A stretch of 64,000 bases of DNA from Anaerotruncus massiliensis (ex Togo et al. 2026). Lineage in GTDB: Bacteria > Bacillota > Clostridia > Oscillospirales > Ruminococcaceae. The translations under genes and the position numbers were made by a program. The number at the start of each line of letters is the position of its first letter. The first letter of the stretch is position 1. The stretch covers positions 2,852,541-2,916,540 of the forward strand of contig NZ_LT962687.1 of the NCBI RefSeq assembly GCF_900199635.1, in the 5' to 3' direction. Positions 20,791-61,536 of this stretch are shown here, piece after piece. The notes beneath the pieces are model-generated. The model was not told the origin of the DNA and did no database searches. It saw only the letters and a program-made list of their open reading frames with translations.

Positions 20791-20868
20791 GGGCGGAAAA
20801 CAACGCGCCCGTGGGCGCGTTCGCGCGCTCTGCGCGCGTGCGCGGCGCAGCCGCGCGGTTTTCCGCCC
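20791..20868 (-). repeat. Three-hairpin dispersed element (family 1), copy 1, inverted
   Basis: Outer stem GGGCGGAAAAC/GTTTTCCGCCC encloses three hairpins (AACGCGCCC/GGGCGCGTT, CGCGCGC/GCGCGCG, TGCGCGGC/GCCGCGCG with wobble or mismatch at the end). Read on the minus strand the hairpin order matches copy 2 at 32688. Confidence 0.85.
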
Positions 20869-30644: not shown

Positions 30645-31488
30645 GGGGCGCGGCTTTCCCGCCGCGGGCGTCCCGTTCCTCTTGTGGACGGCGTTTTTCG
30701 TCGCCATCCCGCTCATCTATATCCTTTGCATGAGCTTCATGAAGCGCGCGGCCACCTGGGGGGTCGTCGCCGAGTTTTCGCTCGGCAGCTACGCCAAGAT
30801 GCTCTCCCCCGCCTACCTGCGCGTCTTCGGGGAAAGCCTCTGGCTGTCGGTGCTCACCACCGGCTTTACGCTGCTGCTCGGCTATCCGTTCGCCTATTTC
30901 ACGGCGCAGCTCTCCCCCAAGCGGCGCTCCCTCGCGCTGCTGCTCGTCATCGTGCCCTTCTGGACCAACTCGCTCGTGCGCATCTACGGGTGGATGATCC
31001 TCCTGCGCAGCCAGGGGGTCGTCAACGCCCTGCTCATCGCGCTCGGCGTCATTGACACGCCGCTTAAACTCCTGTATAATTTTGGGGCCGTGCTGGTCGG
31101 CATGGTGTATGCCCTGCTGCCCTTCATGATCCTGTCCGTCTACAACTCGATCTCCAAGCTCGACCCGTCGCTCACCGAAGCGGCGCGCGATTTGGGCGCG
31201 GGCAAGTGGCGCGCCTTCTGGAGCGTCACCGTGCCGATGACCCGGGCGGGCATCATGGCCGGGTGCGTGCTCGTCTTCATCCCGTCGGTCGGGCTCTTCT
31301 TCATCTCCGACCTGCTCGGCGGCGCAAAGACGATGCTGCTTGGAAACCTCATCAAAAACGAACTGCTCACCGCCCGCAACTGGCCGATGGGCGCGGCGCT
31401 TTCGGTCGTCATGATGGCCGCCACCCTGCTGGTGATCGGCCTCTACCAGAAGCTGTCAGGTGAAAAGAGTCTGGAGGGGATCGTATGA
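30628..31488 (+). CDS. potB: Spermidine/putrescine ABC transporter permease
   Basis: 286 residues, six membrane helices. PotB-type N-terminus ([13 protein letters not shown]) and EAA loop [22 protein letters not shown]. Overlaps potA and potC, so the three are translationally coupled. Confidence 0.95.
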
Positions 31489-32264
31489 GGCGGCGGTCCA
31501 AAATCCCCGAAATCTATGTGACGCTCCTGCTCATTCTCATGTACCTGCCGATCCTGGTCGTCGTGGTCTACTCCTTCAACGACACCAAGCTCTTTAGCTG
31601 GGAGGGGTTCACCTTCTCCTGGTACCAAAAGCTGCTCCACAACCGAAACATCATTACAGCCTTCTTCAACAGCCTCGAGCTCGCGGCGCTCAGCAGCCTG
31701 TCCGCCTCGGTGCTCGGCACCGTCGGCGCGGTGGGCATCGCGGGCAGGCATTTCCGCGGCCGCGGCGCGCTCGAAAATCTTTCCCTCATCCCCATCATGG
31801 TCCCCGAGATCATTCTCGGCATGGCGTACCTCGCGTTTTTCTCCTTCCTGCGCCTGCCCTTCGGCATGCTGACGCTCGTGCTCGCGCACACCACCTTCTG
31901 CGTGCCGTACATCTTCATCAACGTCAAGGCGCGGCTCGCCGGGCTCGACCCCGCCATCGGAGAGGCCGCCCGCGACCTCGGCGCGTCCGCGCCGCGCGCC
32001 TTCTTTGACATCACCCTGCCGCTCATCGCACCTTCCATCCTGTCGGGCGCGCTGCTCGCCTTTGCCATGAGCATGGACGACGTGGTCATCAGCTTTTTTG
32101 CCACCGGCGCGCAGACGAGCACCCTTCCGCTGCAAATCTATTCGATGCTCAAGATGGGCGTCACCCCTGAAATCAATGCCCTGTGCACCCTCATGCTCGG
32201 CGCCGTGTTTCTGATCGTCGCCGTCGGGAGGCTTGTTTCCGCCCGGCGGCAGAGGCGCGCTTAG
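31485..32264 (+). CDS. potC: Spermidine/putrescine ABC transporter permease
   Basis: 259 residues. PotC-type start (YLPILVVVVYSFNDTKLFSWEGFTFSWY split around residue 35) and EAA loop [23 protein letters not shown]. It ends at the edge of the structured non-coding region. potD normally follows at once in Firmicutes but here lies 1061 bp away. Confidence 0.95.
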   Translation: MRRRSKIPEIYVTLLLILMYLPILVVVVYSFNDTKLFSWEGFTFSWYQKLLHNRNIITAFFNSLELAALSSLSASVLGTVGAVGIAGRHFRGRGALENLSLIPIMVPEIILGMAYLAFFSFLRLPFGMLTLVLAHTTFCVPYIFINVKARLAGLDPAIGEAARDLGASAPRAFFDITLPLIAPSILSGALLAFAMSMDDVVISFFATGAQTSTLPLQIYSMLKMGVTPEINALCTLMLGAVFLIVAVGRLVSARRQRRA

Positions 32265-32265
32265 G

Positions 32266-33222
32266 TGTGTCGCTCAGTGAGCGGCGGAGCTTGTCGGTGG
32301 ACGGCCGACGGCCGTTTTAGATATTCCGCCCCGGGGGGCGGAGGGCCTGTCGGTAGTCGACCGACGGTGGACCTTAGGTTCACCGCTCAGTGAGCGGTAT
32401 AGTTTGCCGGGTCCCGCCCCGGCAGGCGGCCCCATTTCTTGTACGGACAAGAAATGGGGGAAAGAAGCCGCAGGGGGCTGCGCCCCCTTGACCCCCGCGC
32501 CGCCTCCGGTTGGCCTGCGGCCAAAGTCGGCGGCGCCCTCTTCACGGATCAGCGAACGAGCTTACAGCATCCCGCCAGCCGCCGCGCCGCAGGCGCAATG
32601 CCTCTGCCCGAGAGTCTCCGGAACCGTACCAGAAGTGCGCCTGGGGAGGCACGGCCGCTTTTGCGTGGCGCGCAGTGCCCACGCGGAGGCGGAAAACTGC
32701 GCGGCTTCGCCGCGCACGCGCGCAGCGCGCGCGAACGCCCGTTCCGGGCGTTGTTTTCCGCCGGGTGTCCCCGGCGAGCCATCCGACAGCAGGATTGTTG
32801 GGTGCAGCGGTACCAGCCTTCTACTCGCGGCTGGCTGGACGTGAGCGGTGGGGGGATTCTCAAGGGGGGCGAGCTTTGCGCCCCGCTTCCTTACAAAAGA
32901 TTCCGCCGTAGGCGGCTCAAAGCGGGTTCCAAAGGGCCGGCGAGGCCCTTTGAGCGGCCGTCGCGCGTAGCGCGCTCCGGGCGTAGCCCGGGCAGGCCGC
33001 TTGAAGCCCCCCTTGAGCGCCCTTCTTCCGCCGACTTCTTGGGCGCGCAAGAAGTCGGCCCGCCTGCCGGGGCGGGACCCGGCGATCTATGCCGCCGAAG
33101 GCGGCTCCCCTAAAGCGCCCCAGAGGGGCGCGTAAAAGGCCCTCCGACCGCTGGGCGGAAAATCTAAAACTGCCGCGCGGCGGAACGCGCTCGTATTTCT
33201 TGCCGCTTGGAAAGCGGCAATT
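32266..33222. repeat. ~950-bp inverted-repeat element between potC and potD
   Basis: The left arm (about 32266-32490) and right arm (about 33003-33222) are homologous in inverted orientation. A 24-bp core is identical (32406-32429 versus 33060-33083, reverse complement). Further linkers match: GTTTTAGAT followed by TTCCGCCC (32314-32331; 33153-33170), CGGAGGGCC, TTAGG, and (T/C)ATAG. Between linkers both arms carry hairpins at the same places with different sequences: GTCGGT/ACCGAC versus GCGCCCC/GGGGCGC; CCGCTCA/TGAGCGG versus GCCGCC/GGCGGC; CCCCATTTCTTGT/ACAAGAAATGGGG versus GCCGACTTCTTG/CAAGAAGTCGGC. Open frames in the middle have no ribosome site and no recognisable protein. Confidence 0.85.
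32688..32762 (+). repeat. Three-hairpin dispersed element (family 1), copy 2
   Basis: Outer stem GGCGGAAAAC/GTTTTCCGCC; internal hairpins TGCGCGGC/GCCGCGCA, CGCGCG/CGCGCG and AACGCCC/GGGCGTT. Lies within the middle part of the potC-potD element. Confidence 0.85.
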
Positions 33223-33325
33223 CCCGCGATAGCCCCGCCGGGCGGCAAAATCAGAAGCCGATTCACCGCAAACGGCGGTTGCAATCATAGATCAGAGTGA
33301 ACAGAAAAGAAAGAAGGGACTTACC

Positions 33326-34360
33326 ATGCGGAAATGGACACGTGCGCTCGCGCTGCTGCTTGCGGCAGTGCTGGCGCTTTCGCTGGGCGCCTGCGGGAAA
33401 AAAGCGGATGAAAAGGTGCTCAACGTCTTCACCTGGGCGACCTACTTCCCCGACGATATCCTCGCGGAGTTTACCGAGCAGACGGGCATCAAGGTGAATT
33501 ACAGCACCTTTGAGTCGAACGAGGAGATGCTCATGAAGCTCGAATCGGGCGGCGAATACGACATCGTGCTCGCGAGCGATTACATCATCGATATCGCGCG
33601 GGGACAGGGCCTGCTGATGGAGCTCGACAAATCAAAAATCCCCAACTTCAAAAACATCAATCCGACCTACCAGAACACCTTCTTCGATCCGGATAACCAG
33701 TATGTCGTCCCCTATTCGGCGGGCGTGCCAATGATCATCTACAACCCTGCCATGACGGGCGGCGTGGAGATCAAGGGTTACGAAGACCTGTGGAATCCGG
33801 CGTTCGCAGACTCGGTCGTCGTGATGGACGACGCGCGCAACATCATCGGCATCACCCTCAAAACGATGGGCAAGAGCTTCAACGAGACCGACCCCGCCGT
33901 GCTGGAGCAGGCCAAGGAGAAGCTGATGACCCTGCGCCCGAACATCCGGGCGTTTGACTACAACACCCCCTACAACCTCATGATCTCGGGCGAGACGGCG
34001 GTCGGCTACATGTTCACCTCCCAGGTGATCACCGCCCTCAACGCGAATCCCGAGCTCAAGACGGTCTATCCCGCCGAGGGCGTCGGATTCGGCATCGACG
34101 CGGTCTTTATCCCCGCCAAGGCCCCCCACGCCGACAATGCGCACGCCTTCCTCGATTTCATCCTCGACGGCGAGCGTTCGGCGCGCATCACCGAGCAGAC
34201 CTTCTACGGGAGCTGCAACTCGGCTGCGACTCCCTATATCACCAATCCCCTGCTGGTCATCCCCGACGATGCGATCCGCAGCGGCGAGTCGATCAAAGAC
34301 GTCGGCGAGGAGGCCACCGCCCTCTTCAACGACATCTGGACGGAATTCAAGCAGAGCTGA
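33326..34360 (+). CDS. potD: Spermidine/putrescine-binding lipoprotein
   Basis: 344 residues. Signal peptide with lipobox LGAC (Cys23), then VLNVFTWATYFPDDILAEF, the conserved start of mature PotD, and ASDYIID plus SAGVPMIIYNP. Binds polyamines outside the membrane for PotABC. It follows the structured region; no strong promoter is seen between, so expression may depend on read-through or on a promoter within the element. Confidence 0.95.
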   Translation: MRKWTRALALLLAAVLALSLGACGKKADEKVLNVFTWATYFPDDILAEFTEQTGIKVNYSTFESNEEMLMKLESGGEYDIVLASDYIIDIARGQGLLMELDKSKIPNFKNINPTYQNTFFDPDNQYVVPYSAGVPMIIYNPAMTGGVEIKGYEDLWNPAFADSVVVMDDARNIIGITLKTMGKSFNETDPAVLEQAKEKLMTLRPNIRAFDYNTPYNLMISGETAVGYMFTSQVITALNANPELKTVYPAEGVGFGIDAVFIPAKAPHADNAHAFLDFILDGERSARITEQTFYGSCNSAATPYITNPLLVIPDDAIRSGESIKDVGEEATALFNDIWTEFKQS

Positions 34361-34370
34361 ACCCCCATAA

Positions 34371-34405
34371 AAAAGCGGCCGCCCTCCGGGCGGCCGCTTT
34401 TTCTT
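34371..34405. terminator. Bidirectional terminator after potD
   Basis: AAAAAGCGGCCGCCC / GGGCGGCCGCTTTTT with loop TCC, between potD and the convergent XRE gene. Confidence 0.93.
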
Positions 34406-36892: not shown

Positions 36893-36975
36893 GGCGGAAA
36901 ACCGTGCGGCAAAGCCGCACGCGCGCGAAAGCGGCGCTTTCGCGCGGGCGCCCCATCGGGGCGCCGTTTTCCGCC
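36893..36975 (+). repeat. Three-hairpin dispersed element (family 1), copy 3
   Basis: GGCGGAAAAC/GTTTTCCGCC outer stem; hairpins CGTGCGGC/GCCGCACG, CGCGCGAAAGC/GCTTTCGCGCG and GGCGCCCC/GGGGCGCC. Lies between the GNAT and patatin genes. Confidence 0.88.
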
Positions 36976-40020: not shown

Positions 40021-40101
40021 GGCGGAAAACCCAAATCCGCGCAGGCGGGATTTGTCCCGCGCTCCGCGCGGGCGGCGCGCGGGGCGCGCCGGTTTTCCGC
40101 C
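40021..40101 (+). repeat. Three-hairpin dispersed element (family 1), copy 4, in the deoB leader
   Basis: GGCGGAAAAC/GTTTTCCGCC ends; hairpins CAAATCC.../GGATTTG, CCCGCGC/GCGCGGG and CGGCGCGC/GCGCGCCG. It ends 40 bp before the deoB start and would be part of its 5' UTR. Confidence 0.85.
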
Positions 40102-44008: not shown

Positions 44009-44032
44009 ACCGCCCCGCGCGGCGAAAAAGAA

Positions 44033-44070
44033 CCCGCCGTCCCGGCCCTCCGGCCGGGACGGCGGGTTTG
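44033..44070 (+). terminator. Terminator of the lipoprotein gene
   Basis: Perfect 15-bp stem CCCGCCGTCCCGGCC / GGCCGGGACGGCGGG, loop CTCC, T3. Confidence 0.88.
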
Positions 44071-44089
44071 CGCGTCGGAGACGCGCACA

Positions 44090-44121
44090 GGGGTCCAAAC
44101 GACGTTCGTCGTTTGGACCCC
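44090..44121. repeat. 32-bp near-perfect palindrome
   Basis: GGGGTCCAAACGACG and its reverse complement are separated by TT, followed by CTGCTTTTTC. Could be a second terminator or a dispersed palindrome; nothing else in the window matches it. Confidence 0.7.
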
Positions 44122-44226
44122 TGCTTTTTCGCCGCGGGGGCCGGGGCACGCGGCCGCTTTTTGACGCGCGGGGCCGGGGCGCGGTATATTCGGGCGGGCG
44201 GCGTTTACAATAGCAATTGGCGGCGC

Positions 44227-61464: not shown

Positions 61465-61536
61465 GGCGGAAAACCGTGCGGCCTGGCCGCACGCGCGCTT
61501 CGCGCGTGGCGCGCCTCCGGCGCGCCGTTTTCCGCC
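61465..61536 (+). repeat. Three-hairpin dispersed element (family 1), copy 5
   Basis: Outer stem GGCGGAAAAC/GTTTTCCGCC; hairpins CGTGCGGC/GCCGCACG, ACGCGCG/CGCGCGT and GGCGCGCC/GGCGCGCC. Confidence 0.9.

Follow-up and report, generated by a model that had tools for sequence, protein, structure and literature searches.

A hairpin-tiled block between potC and potD is probably one of about 50 dispersed copies of a large, non-coding mosaic element

In the 64,000-nucleotide stretch of the Anaerotruncus massiliensis genome analysed here (the window), a spacer of 1061 nt separates two genes that we take, from the layout of the operon, to be potC and potD. What fills this spacer, and does it belong to the operon? 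A reading made from the sequence alone had placed an inverted-repeat, hairpin-rich element at 32266-33222, had proposed that it was inserted or grown within the operon, and had argued for selection on its structure, either in RNA or in cruciform DNA. We found that the spacer (32265-33325) is indeed occupied by an inverted-repeat block tiled with hairpins. Its left border is the stop codon of potC, the TAG of which is contained in the repeat's own CTTAG linker; homology with other copies in the same genome carries its right end further than had been proposed, to about 33244. The features of the block and its neighbours are as follows.

31485-32264, + strand: potC (permease), upstream neighbour; open reading frame with orthologues in relatives
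32265-33244, + strand: the whole block, one copy of the putative interspersed mosaic element, delimited by comparison with homologous copies elsewhere in the genome
32260-32410, + strand: left array of three palindromic units (32260-32297, 32316-32353, 32373-32410), a direct repeat family
32406-32429, + strand: 24-nt exact inverted core, left copy
32435-32466, + strand: hairpin with purine mirror tract (TTTCTT - AAGAAA - AAAGAA), from a pattern match at C7:2884975-2885006
32473-32487, + strand: G-rich hairpin GGGGGC..GCCCCC, then TTGACCCC; read in the sequence, with variants among copies
32492-32657, + strand: conserved core, covariance model R1, 50 copies genome-wide
32688-32762, + strand: cloverleaf, a perfect four-way junction of a closing stem (GGCGGAAAAC/GTTTTCCGCC) and three abutting hairpins
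32786-33021, + strand: type-I 3' half, from comparison with other copies
33030-33059, + strand: right-arm hairpin with 12-bp stem; pyrimidine mirror tract on its 5' side, by eye
33060-33083, - strand: 24-nt exact inverted core, right copy
33084-33244, + strand: right arm, linkers and swapped hairpins; its terminal piece 33171-33244 is common to many copies
33326-34360, + strand: potD (substrate-binding lipoprotein), downstream neighbour; open reading frame with orthologues in relatives
20791-20868, 36893-36975, 40021-40101, 44018-44136 and 61465-61536: other cloverleafs of the window, each between same-strand genes, with differing hairpins

The two arms of the block pair in inverted orientation without gaps over 74 nt (32394-32467 with 33022-33095, 81%) and again over 28 nt (32309-32336 with 33148-33175, 86%), and a gapped alignment unites them over 32309-32467 and 33022-33175 at 72%. 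They are alike in their linkers, of which GTTTTAGAT, TTCCGCCC, CGGAGGGCC and TTAGG can be read directly in the sequence, and unlike in their hairpins. The stems that adjoin the 24-nt core, 13 bp on the left (32430-32459) and 12 bp on the right (33030-33059), are those that the sequence-only reading had described. The units of the left array are spaced 56-57 nt apart and resemble each other at 61-76%. When 958 nt of the block were folded with RNA parameters, the minimum free energy was -595 kcal/mol, compared with -477 +/- 7 for 30 dinucleotide shuffles (z = -16.6). Judged from its letters, the mirror-tract hairpin at 32435-32466 could fold into an intrastrand triplex with 6 triads. Conservation of the repeat is highest within the 500 nt that separate the arms, a stretch left undescribed in the sequence-only reading. 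Beyond the operon, between potD and the convergent gene, is an ordinary, bidirectional-looking terminator (34370-34402; A-tract, GC hairpin, T-tract).

A search of the genome with the block as query returned 166 matching pieces. From an alignment of the inner region of 32 copies we built R1, a covariance model of 165 positions, which identifies 50 genomic copies (45 on C7, the contig that carries the window, 4 on C6 and 1 on C4; E 1.4e-43 to 6.9e-16). The sequence-only reading had named a lack of homologous copies elsewhere as one thing that would refute it, and such copies exist in number; its placing of the block as a feature peculiar to potABCD is not borne out, the block being one among about 50 dispersed copies. 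The core-bearing blocks stand at 50 distinct sites and are 397-1487 bp long. No gene called by the codon model falls inside any of them, and we rejected coding potential of the core by eye on account of single-base indels between copies. We consider it probable that the block is one copy of a large non-coding, non-autonomous interspersed mosaic element, resembling the bacterial BIMEs and MITEs.

The mosaic character of the copies shows in their varying ends, swapped 3' halves and swapped stems. Blocks end in one to several palindromic units, and their borders vary with the number of these end units. The stem beside the 24-nt core occurs in several forms that are changed on both sides (CCCCATTTCTTG, CCCTATTTCTTG, CCCAATTTCTTG and GTTCCTTTCTTG, each with a matching partner). 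At least two types of 3' half exist. At 30 sites (32 aligned rows, two of which repeat a single site) there is a stretch of some 95 nt (GTTGGGAGCGCCCGCAACCTGAATTGAGCC...GGCAAGGTACTCCC) that is near constant even where the sequence preceding it differs; it is absent from the window copy, whose 3' half is of another type (type I). The copies L031, L006 and L025 are examples of those in which the stretch was seen.

Inside the block lies the cloverleaf, a closed four-way junction in which a 10-bp stem is followed by three hairpins with no spacer between them. A pattern with exact stems finds it at 40 places in this genome and at none in 10 congeners. With a cloverleaf model, R2, at least 49 distinct sites were found here (93 strand matches among 150 candidates scored) and none in the 10 congeners (150 candidates scored). 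Across 296 other genomes of the family, R2 gave at least one weak match (41 bits, genome G078; stricter filters, 16 candidates scored), which by eye proved to be three hairpins inside an inverted repeat of another sequence and was rejected as a cloverleaf. By their coordinates, about 15 sites (13 on C7, 2 on C6) carry stand-alone cloverleafs, which lie in either orientation relative to their neighbours. Five cloverleafs in the window match the exact pattern (at 20792, 32688, 36893, 40021 and 61465), a pattern found 0 times in 100 shuffles; a sixth, at 44018-44136, differs in its closing stem, has very long perfect hairpins and begins some 10 nt past a stop codon. A scan that used structure only recovered 4 of the 6 window junctions and, at this sensitivity, found none in 400 kb from four congeners, in 200 kb elsewhere in this genome or in 5 block-shuffled windows.

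The cloverleaf also keeps its shape while its letters change, as had been proposed for the hairpins of the block. In an alignment of 20 distinct rows, 97.1% of cells are paired and 14 of 33 pairs are changed on both sides (49 cells). Four of five covariation measures were matched by 0 of 500 shuffles, and the fifth (further pair types) by 2 of 500. That the closing stem does not vary in this alignment follows from its use as the search pattern. When only the ten stand-alone rows are considered, two-sided changes affect 10 of 23 hairpin pairs (26 cells), and 211 of 224 cells are paired.

Relative to the element, the flanking genes of the 50 distinct sites read (+,+) at 23, (+,-) at 14, (-,-) at 10 and (-,+) at 3. 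An upstream gene on the same strand is thus present at 37 of the 50, and in 24 of those cases the left border falls between -23 and +7 nt from that gene's stop codon; both sets of counts use gene calls from the codon model. Between same-strand neighbours, the orientation of the element is no more than mildly biased (23 vs 10, p 0.035). Four congeners have the orthologous potC-potD pair, and their spacers, which are also hairpin-rich, measure about 310-490 nt and do not match the block; compared with the 1061 nt here, this upholds the proposal that the block is an addition within the operon. In one of the congeners, G004, the element is missing at potC-potD and at five other orthologous places (L101, L105, L017, L032 and L027), these five being the ones compared among seven further places with flank-gene matches in the stretches at hand (L010 and L020 are the other two). 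At two of them, L105 and L017, G004 has a strong hairpin terminator directly behind the stop codon. The R1 core was found in none of 10 congeners and in none of 147 other genomes of the family sample (stricter filters, 19 candidates scored per genome).

From the copy number, the confinement to this genome among those sampled and the absence from orthologous places, we infer that the element is mobile. Its palindromic DNA modules (inverted-arm hairpins, mirror-tract hairpin, core and cloverleaf) would have been copied jointly into intergenic space, most often behind a stop codon. The copies would move as DNA, with an enzyme acting in trans, and modules would be swapped between copies by recombination or gene conversion. 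The hairpins may be kept perfect by palindrome-templated repair, by selection for extrudable DNA (cruciform, triplex), or by both. At potC-potD, the local effect would likely be BIME-like: strong 3' structure behind potABC could stabilise the upstream message or cut read-through, and potD would be uncoupled from potABC.

The point that a mobile element handles worst is the avoidance of the terminus, which simple insertion does not explain. The dnaA gene lies at C7:3012579, and the sampled GC skew, although noisy, changes sign, positive to negative, within 1.31-1.51 Mb and is positive in the window at 2.88 Mb. With the distance between dnaA and the point opposite it divided into fifths, the core copies on C7 (45 in all) number 20, 11, 11, 3 and 0 (KS p 6.5e-6), or 16, 6, 7, 3 and 0 when copies within 20 kb are merged (p 4e-4); C6 and C4 are unplaced and were excluded. 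The largest gap between core copies, 908 kb (C7 1.014-1.922 Mb), is centred near the point opposite dnaA and is wider than any of 20,000 random draws, and neither a core copy nor a stand-alone cloverleaf was found in it. The 13 stand-alone cloverleafs on C7 follow the same gradient (8, 2, 1, 2 and 0; p 0.002), and the 58 C7 matches to the arm's hairpin/mirror pattern (among the 65 listed of 70; see below) skip the same 0.9-Mb terminus stretch. The strand of the element shows no bias with respect to the direction of replication (24 of 45).

Such a distribution could mean that the copies are chromosome-organising sites: each would bind a nucleoid or division protein, much as Noc and SlmA sites do, and function would confine the copies to the origin side and keep them out of the terminus. 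In B. subtilis, the terminus is likewise free of Noc sites, and SlmA sites show a similar distribution (excerpts of PMC4331003). The supply of intergenic space lends this some support, since gaps of at least 60 nt are about as frequent in four terminus stretches (7.2 per 20 kb) as in six others (7.7); however, the window has more of them (11.6). Noc sites, moreover, are short palindromes and not 1-kb mosaics, the congeners also need to organise their chromosomes and have neither core nor cloverleaf, and the two chromosome arms are unequal, with 31 vs 14 core copies. A position nearer the origin is also seen for the triplex motifs of E. coli K-12, which have no known organising role, and other strains lack this bias (excerpts of PMC4666352). 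In Pseudomonas, REP deserts occur, and REPs there are typically missing near the origin (excerpts of PMC3390384). We regard a role as organising sites as rather unlikely. The steep gradient raises the question of what bars such repeats from the terminus, and this avoidance is the best reason for studying the element further.

Alternatively, the block could belong to a structured non-coding RNA family, being transcribed, often as a 3' UTR, with the folded RNA as its functional product. The same-strand location behind stop codons at many sites and the compensatory changes are consistent with this hypothesis, as are the long unpaired stretches that are conserved within the core and the 95-nt motif. 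We reasoned that if RNA were the selected form, G-U should exceed A-C among imperfect pairs, a count that also serves as a check on the alignments, since an alignment built on a model or consensus tends to favour it. Over all predicted core pairs, G-U does exceed A-C by cells (59 vs 30) but not by column events (17 vs 23), and the excess of cells comes mostly from a few weak pairs. The cloverleafs in the 32 core copies contain 9 G-U vs 13 A-C cells, or 7 vs 9 column events, and the 20-row alignment has 7 vs 11 cells. Because the cloverleaf shows no surplus of G-U over A-C, covariation does not demonstrate RNA-level selection; the earlier proposal is upheld as regards the keeping of structure through sequence change, and is not supported by covariation as regards RNA. 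The stand-alone cloverleafs, lying as they do in either orientation, and the 10 of 50 sites at which the element opposes both neighbours also fit poorly with a transcribed product. No Rfam family reached its gathering score in the window; a lenient search of the potC-potD block gave matches with E > 1 only, and L031, a copy with the 95-nt stretch, gave none up to E 3. An RNA family is an unlikely explanation. On the sequence evidence, the perfect hairpins appear to be better explained at the DNA level, by palindrome-templated correction, whole-hairpin swapping or selection for extrusion, and the block may still be transcribed. In the core, unpaired stretches are conserved, which suggests that a specific sequence is recognised, and a mobile element leaves this unaccounted for.

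If the copies are mobile, which enzyme moves them? Our search for one covered PF01797 and PF00078. The first, the Y1 transposase of IS200/RAYT type, has 0 matches in this genome, with the control positive in 5 of 14 genomes, and we rejected RAYT/IS200 as the mobiliser. The second has one, a reverse transcriptase gene (RVT_1; C7:329606-330427) in an open frame of 606 residues. This gene might point to retrotransposition, by reverse transcriptase or group II intron type machinery, as might the two copies standing where G004 has a terminator; group IIC introns prefer terminator sites. However, the gene does not lie near a core copy, and the Rfam searches matched neither a group II intron nor any other ribozyme family, which makes movement through RNA very improbable. 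That the block is a regulatory spacer grown inside potABCD and specific to that operon, as the hairpin-rich spacers of the congeners might hint, is contradicted by the 50 dispersed copies (this one included) and by the lack of any match to the block in those same spacers, and can be dismissed. A phage or plasmid origin was also rejected, as blastn gave no match in either collection, from which this genome or near ones may be absent. Viral contigs held one exact 20-mer match and no cloverleaf by the exact pattern, and contigs of named genomes, among which this genome may be missing, held 11 exact 20-mer matches. When these 12 loci were scored with R1, three weak matches resulted, at 16, 14 and 10.5 bits (E from 0.023 to 0.54), which did not resemble copies, and we rejected the loci as carriers of the core.

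Returning to a mobile mosaic of DNA modules, we looked at how far its parts extend beyond this genome. When the whole block was searched against 60 relatives, it matched short pieces only, in at least five genomes (G005, G006, G007, G010 and G057; 7 best candidates per genome). Two congeners, G007 and G010, have related arms with a different body and share pieces of about 225-320 nt at 78-83%, several of which are at or near contig ends. In G005, a congener without the core, a hairpin module that resembles window positions 32904-32977 adjoins what by eye look like tRNA genes and a 23S rRNA gene (L045 1480-1600).

The arm module itself, a hairpin TTTCTT/AAGAAA followed by the mirror tract AAAGAA, has the class II order of intrastrand triplex motifs. 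Short intrastrand triads are common by chance, and a 6-nt stem is of such a length (excerpts of PMC4666352), so the count in a control matters. In this genome, the hairpin/mirror pattern has 70 matches vs 0 for the reversed control. Among the 60 relatives it occurs in 19, with 149 matches in total vs 13 for the control, and has 0 in the other 41, six congeners included. The high counts are in G011 (37), G041 (20), G015 (19), G024 (18), G060 (12) and G057 (11); G026 has 8, but its control has 4. In eleven stretches from G011, G015, G024 and G060, which belong to other genera of the order (L225-L235), the module stands in hairpin-rich surroundings that differ from those here; a G-rich hairpin comes after it, as in this genome, in stretches from G011 and G060. 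Tentatively, and as a less probable extension, these observations could reflect an order-wide class of composite DNA-structure elements that are united by architecture rather than sequence (inverted hairpin arms, mirror-purine hairpin, G-rich hairpin and a species-specific body) and that rise and fall in single species. Here, such an element would have acquired a four-way junction that keeps its shape and changes its letters, and its origin-side, terminus-excluded sites would now be used or tolerated in chromosome organisation.

How does the element compare with known systems? Structured RNAs in Rfam offer no counterpart at the gathering threshold. Cozzuto et al. described repeated intergenic stem-loop families with a common predicted structure, in a survey of 40 genomes, and the word cloverleaf is absent from its main text (PMC2267715). 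Within the limited and partial literature that we covered, no description of this element was found. Noc and SlmA binding sites resemble it in being scattered and absent from the terminus, as the element is, and Noc sites also in being palindromic, but they are short single boxes with a known protein (excerpts of PMC4331003). Closer in form are the intrastrand triplex motifs (TMECO, ITxF class II), which have a pyrimidine-purine-purine order with the purine mirror tract 3' of the hairpin, are patchy between close relatives and lie nearer the origin in E. coli K-12 (excerpts of PMC4666352). The module has the pyrimidine arm, purine arm and mirror purine tract of the class II sequence definition, with a stem that is predicted to be only 6 nt, at the bottom of the 6-15 nt allowed. 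TMECO, reported from Proteobacteria, has a 9-nt G/C-rich stem (excerpts of PMC4666352), whereas the triad stem here is A-rich and sits within a larger element.

The nearest relatives in kind are the MITEs and the REP/BIME repeats. Bacterial MITEs (RUP, NEMIS, Bcr1, ERIC and others) are non-coding and gene-adjacent, with terminal inverted repeats and strong secondary structure, and by definition measure 70-300 bp with terminal inverted repeats of 15-30 bp (excerpts of PMC3733652). The element shares their inverted arms and, judging from the absence of called genes in the blocks and from indels seen by eye, their lack of coding capacity, but its blocks of 397-1487 bp and arms of about 220 nt are larger. 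BIMEs, too, are mosaics of palindromic units that alternate in orientation, are intergenic, mostly lie behind genes and in some families are species-specific (excerpts of PMC3733652), and the element is likewise an intergenic mosaic of inverted palindromic units. REP units, however, are 20-40 bp long and tagged GTAG or CGTC, with the GTAG types tied to RAYT transposases (excerpts of PMC3733652), whereas the array spacing of 56-57 nt, the 165-nt core and the 75-nt cloverleaf exceed that unit size, and PF01797 has 0 matches in this genome. Many described bacterial palindromic repeats are short and often tied to a Y1 transposase; here, a kilobase mosaic consists almost entirely of hairpins, no Y1 transposase was found, and a junction module is conserved by shape and not by sequence. 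The element therefore offers a direct route to asking whether DNA secondary structure is itself the selected or copied trait. At 0.4-1.5 kb, and with its conserved core and four-way junction, it is larger and more structured than the BIMEs and MITEs of the definitions with which we compared it.
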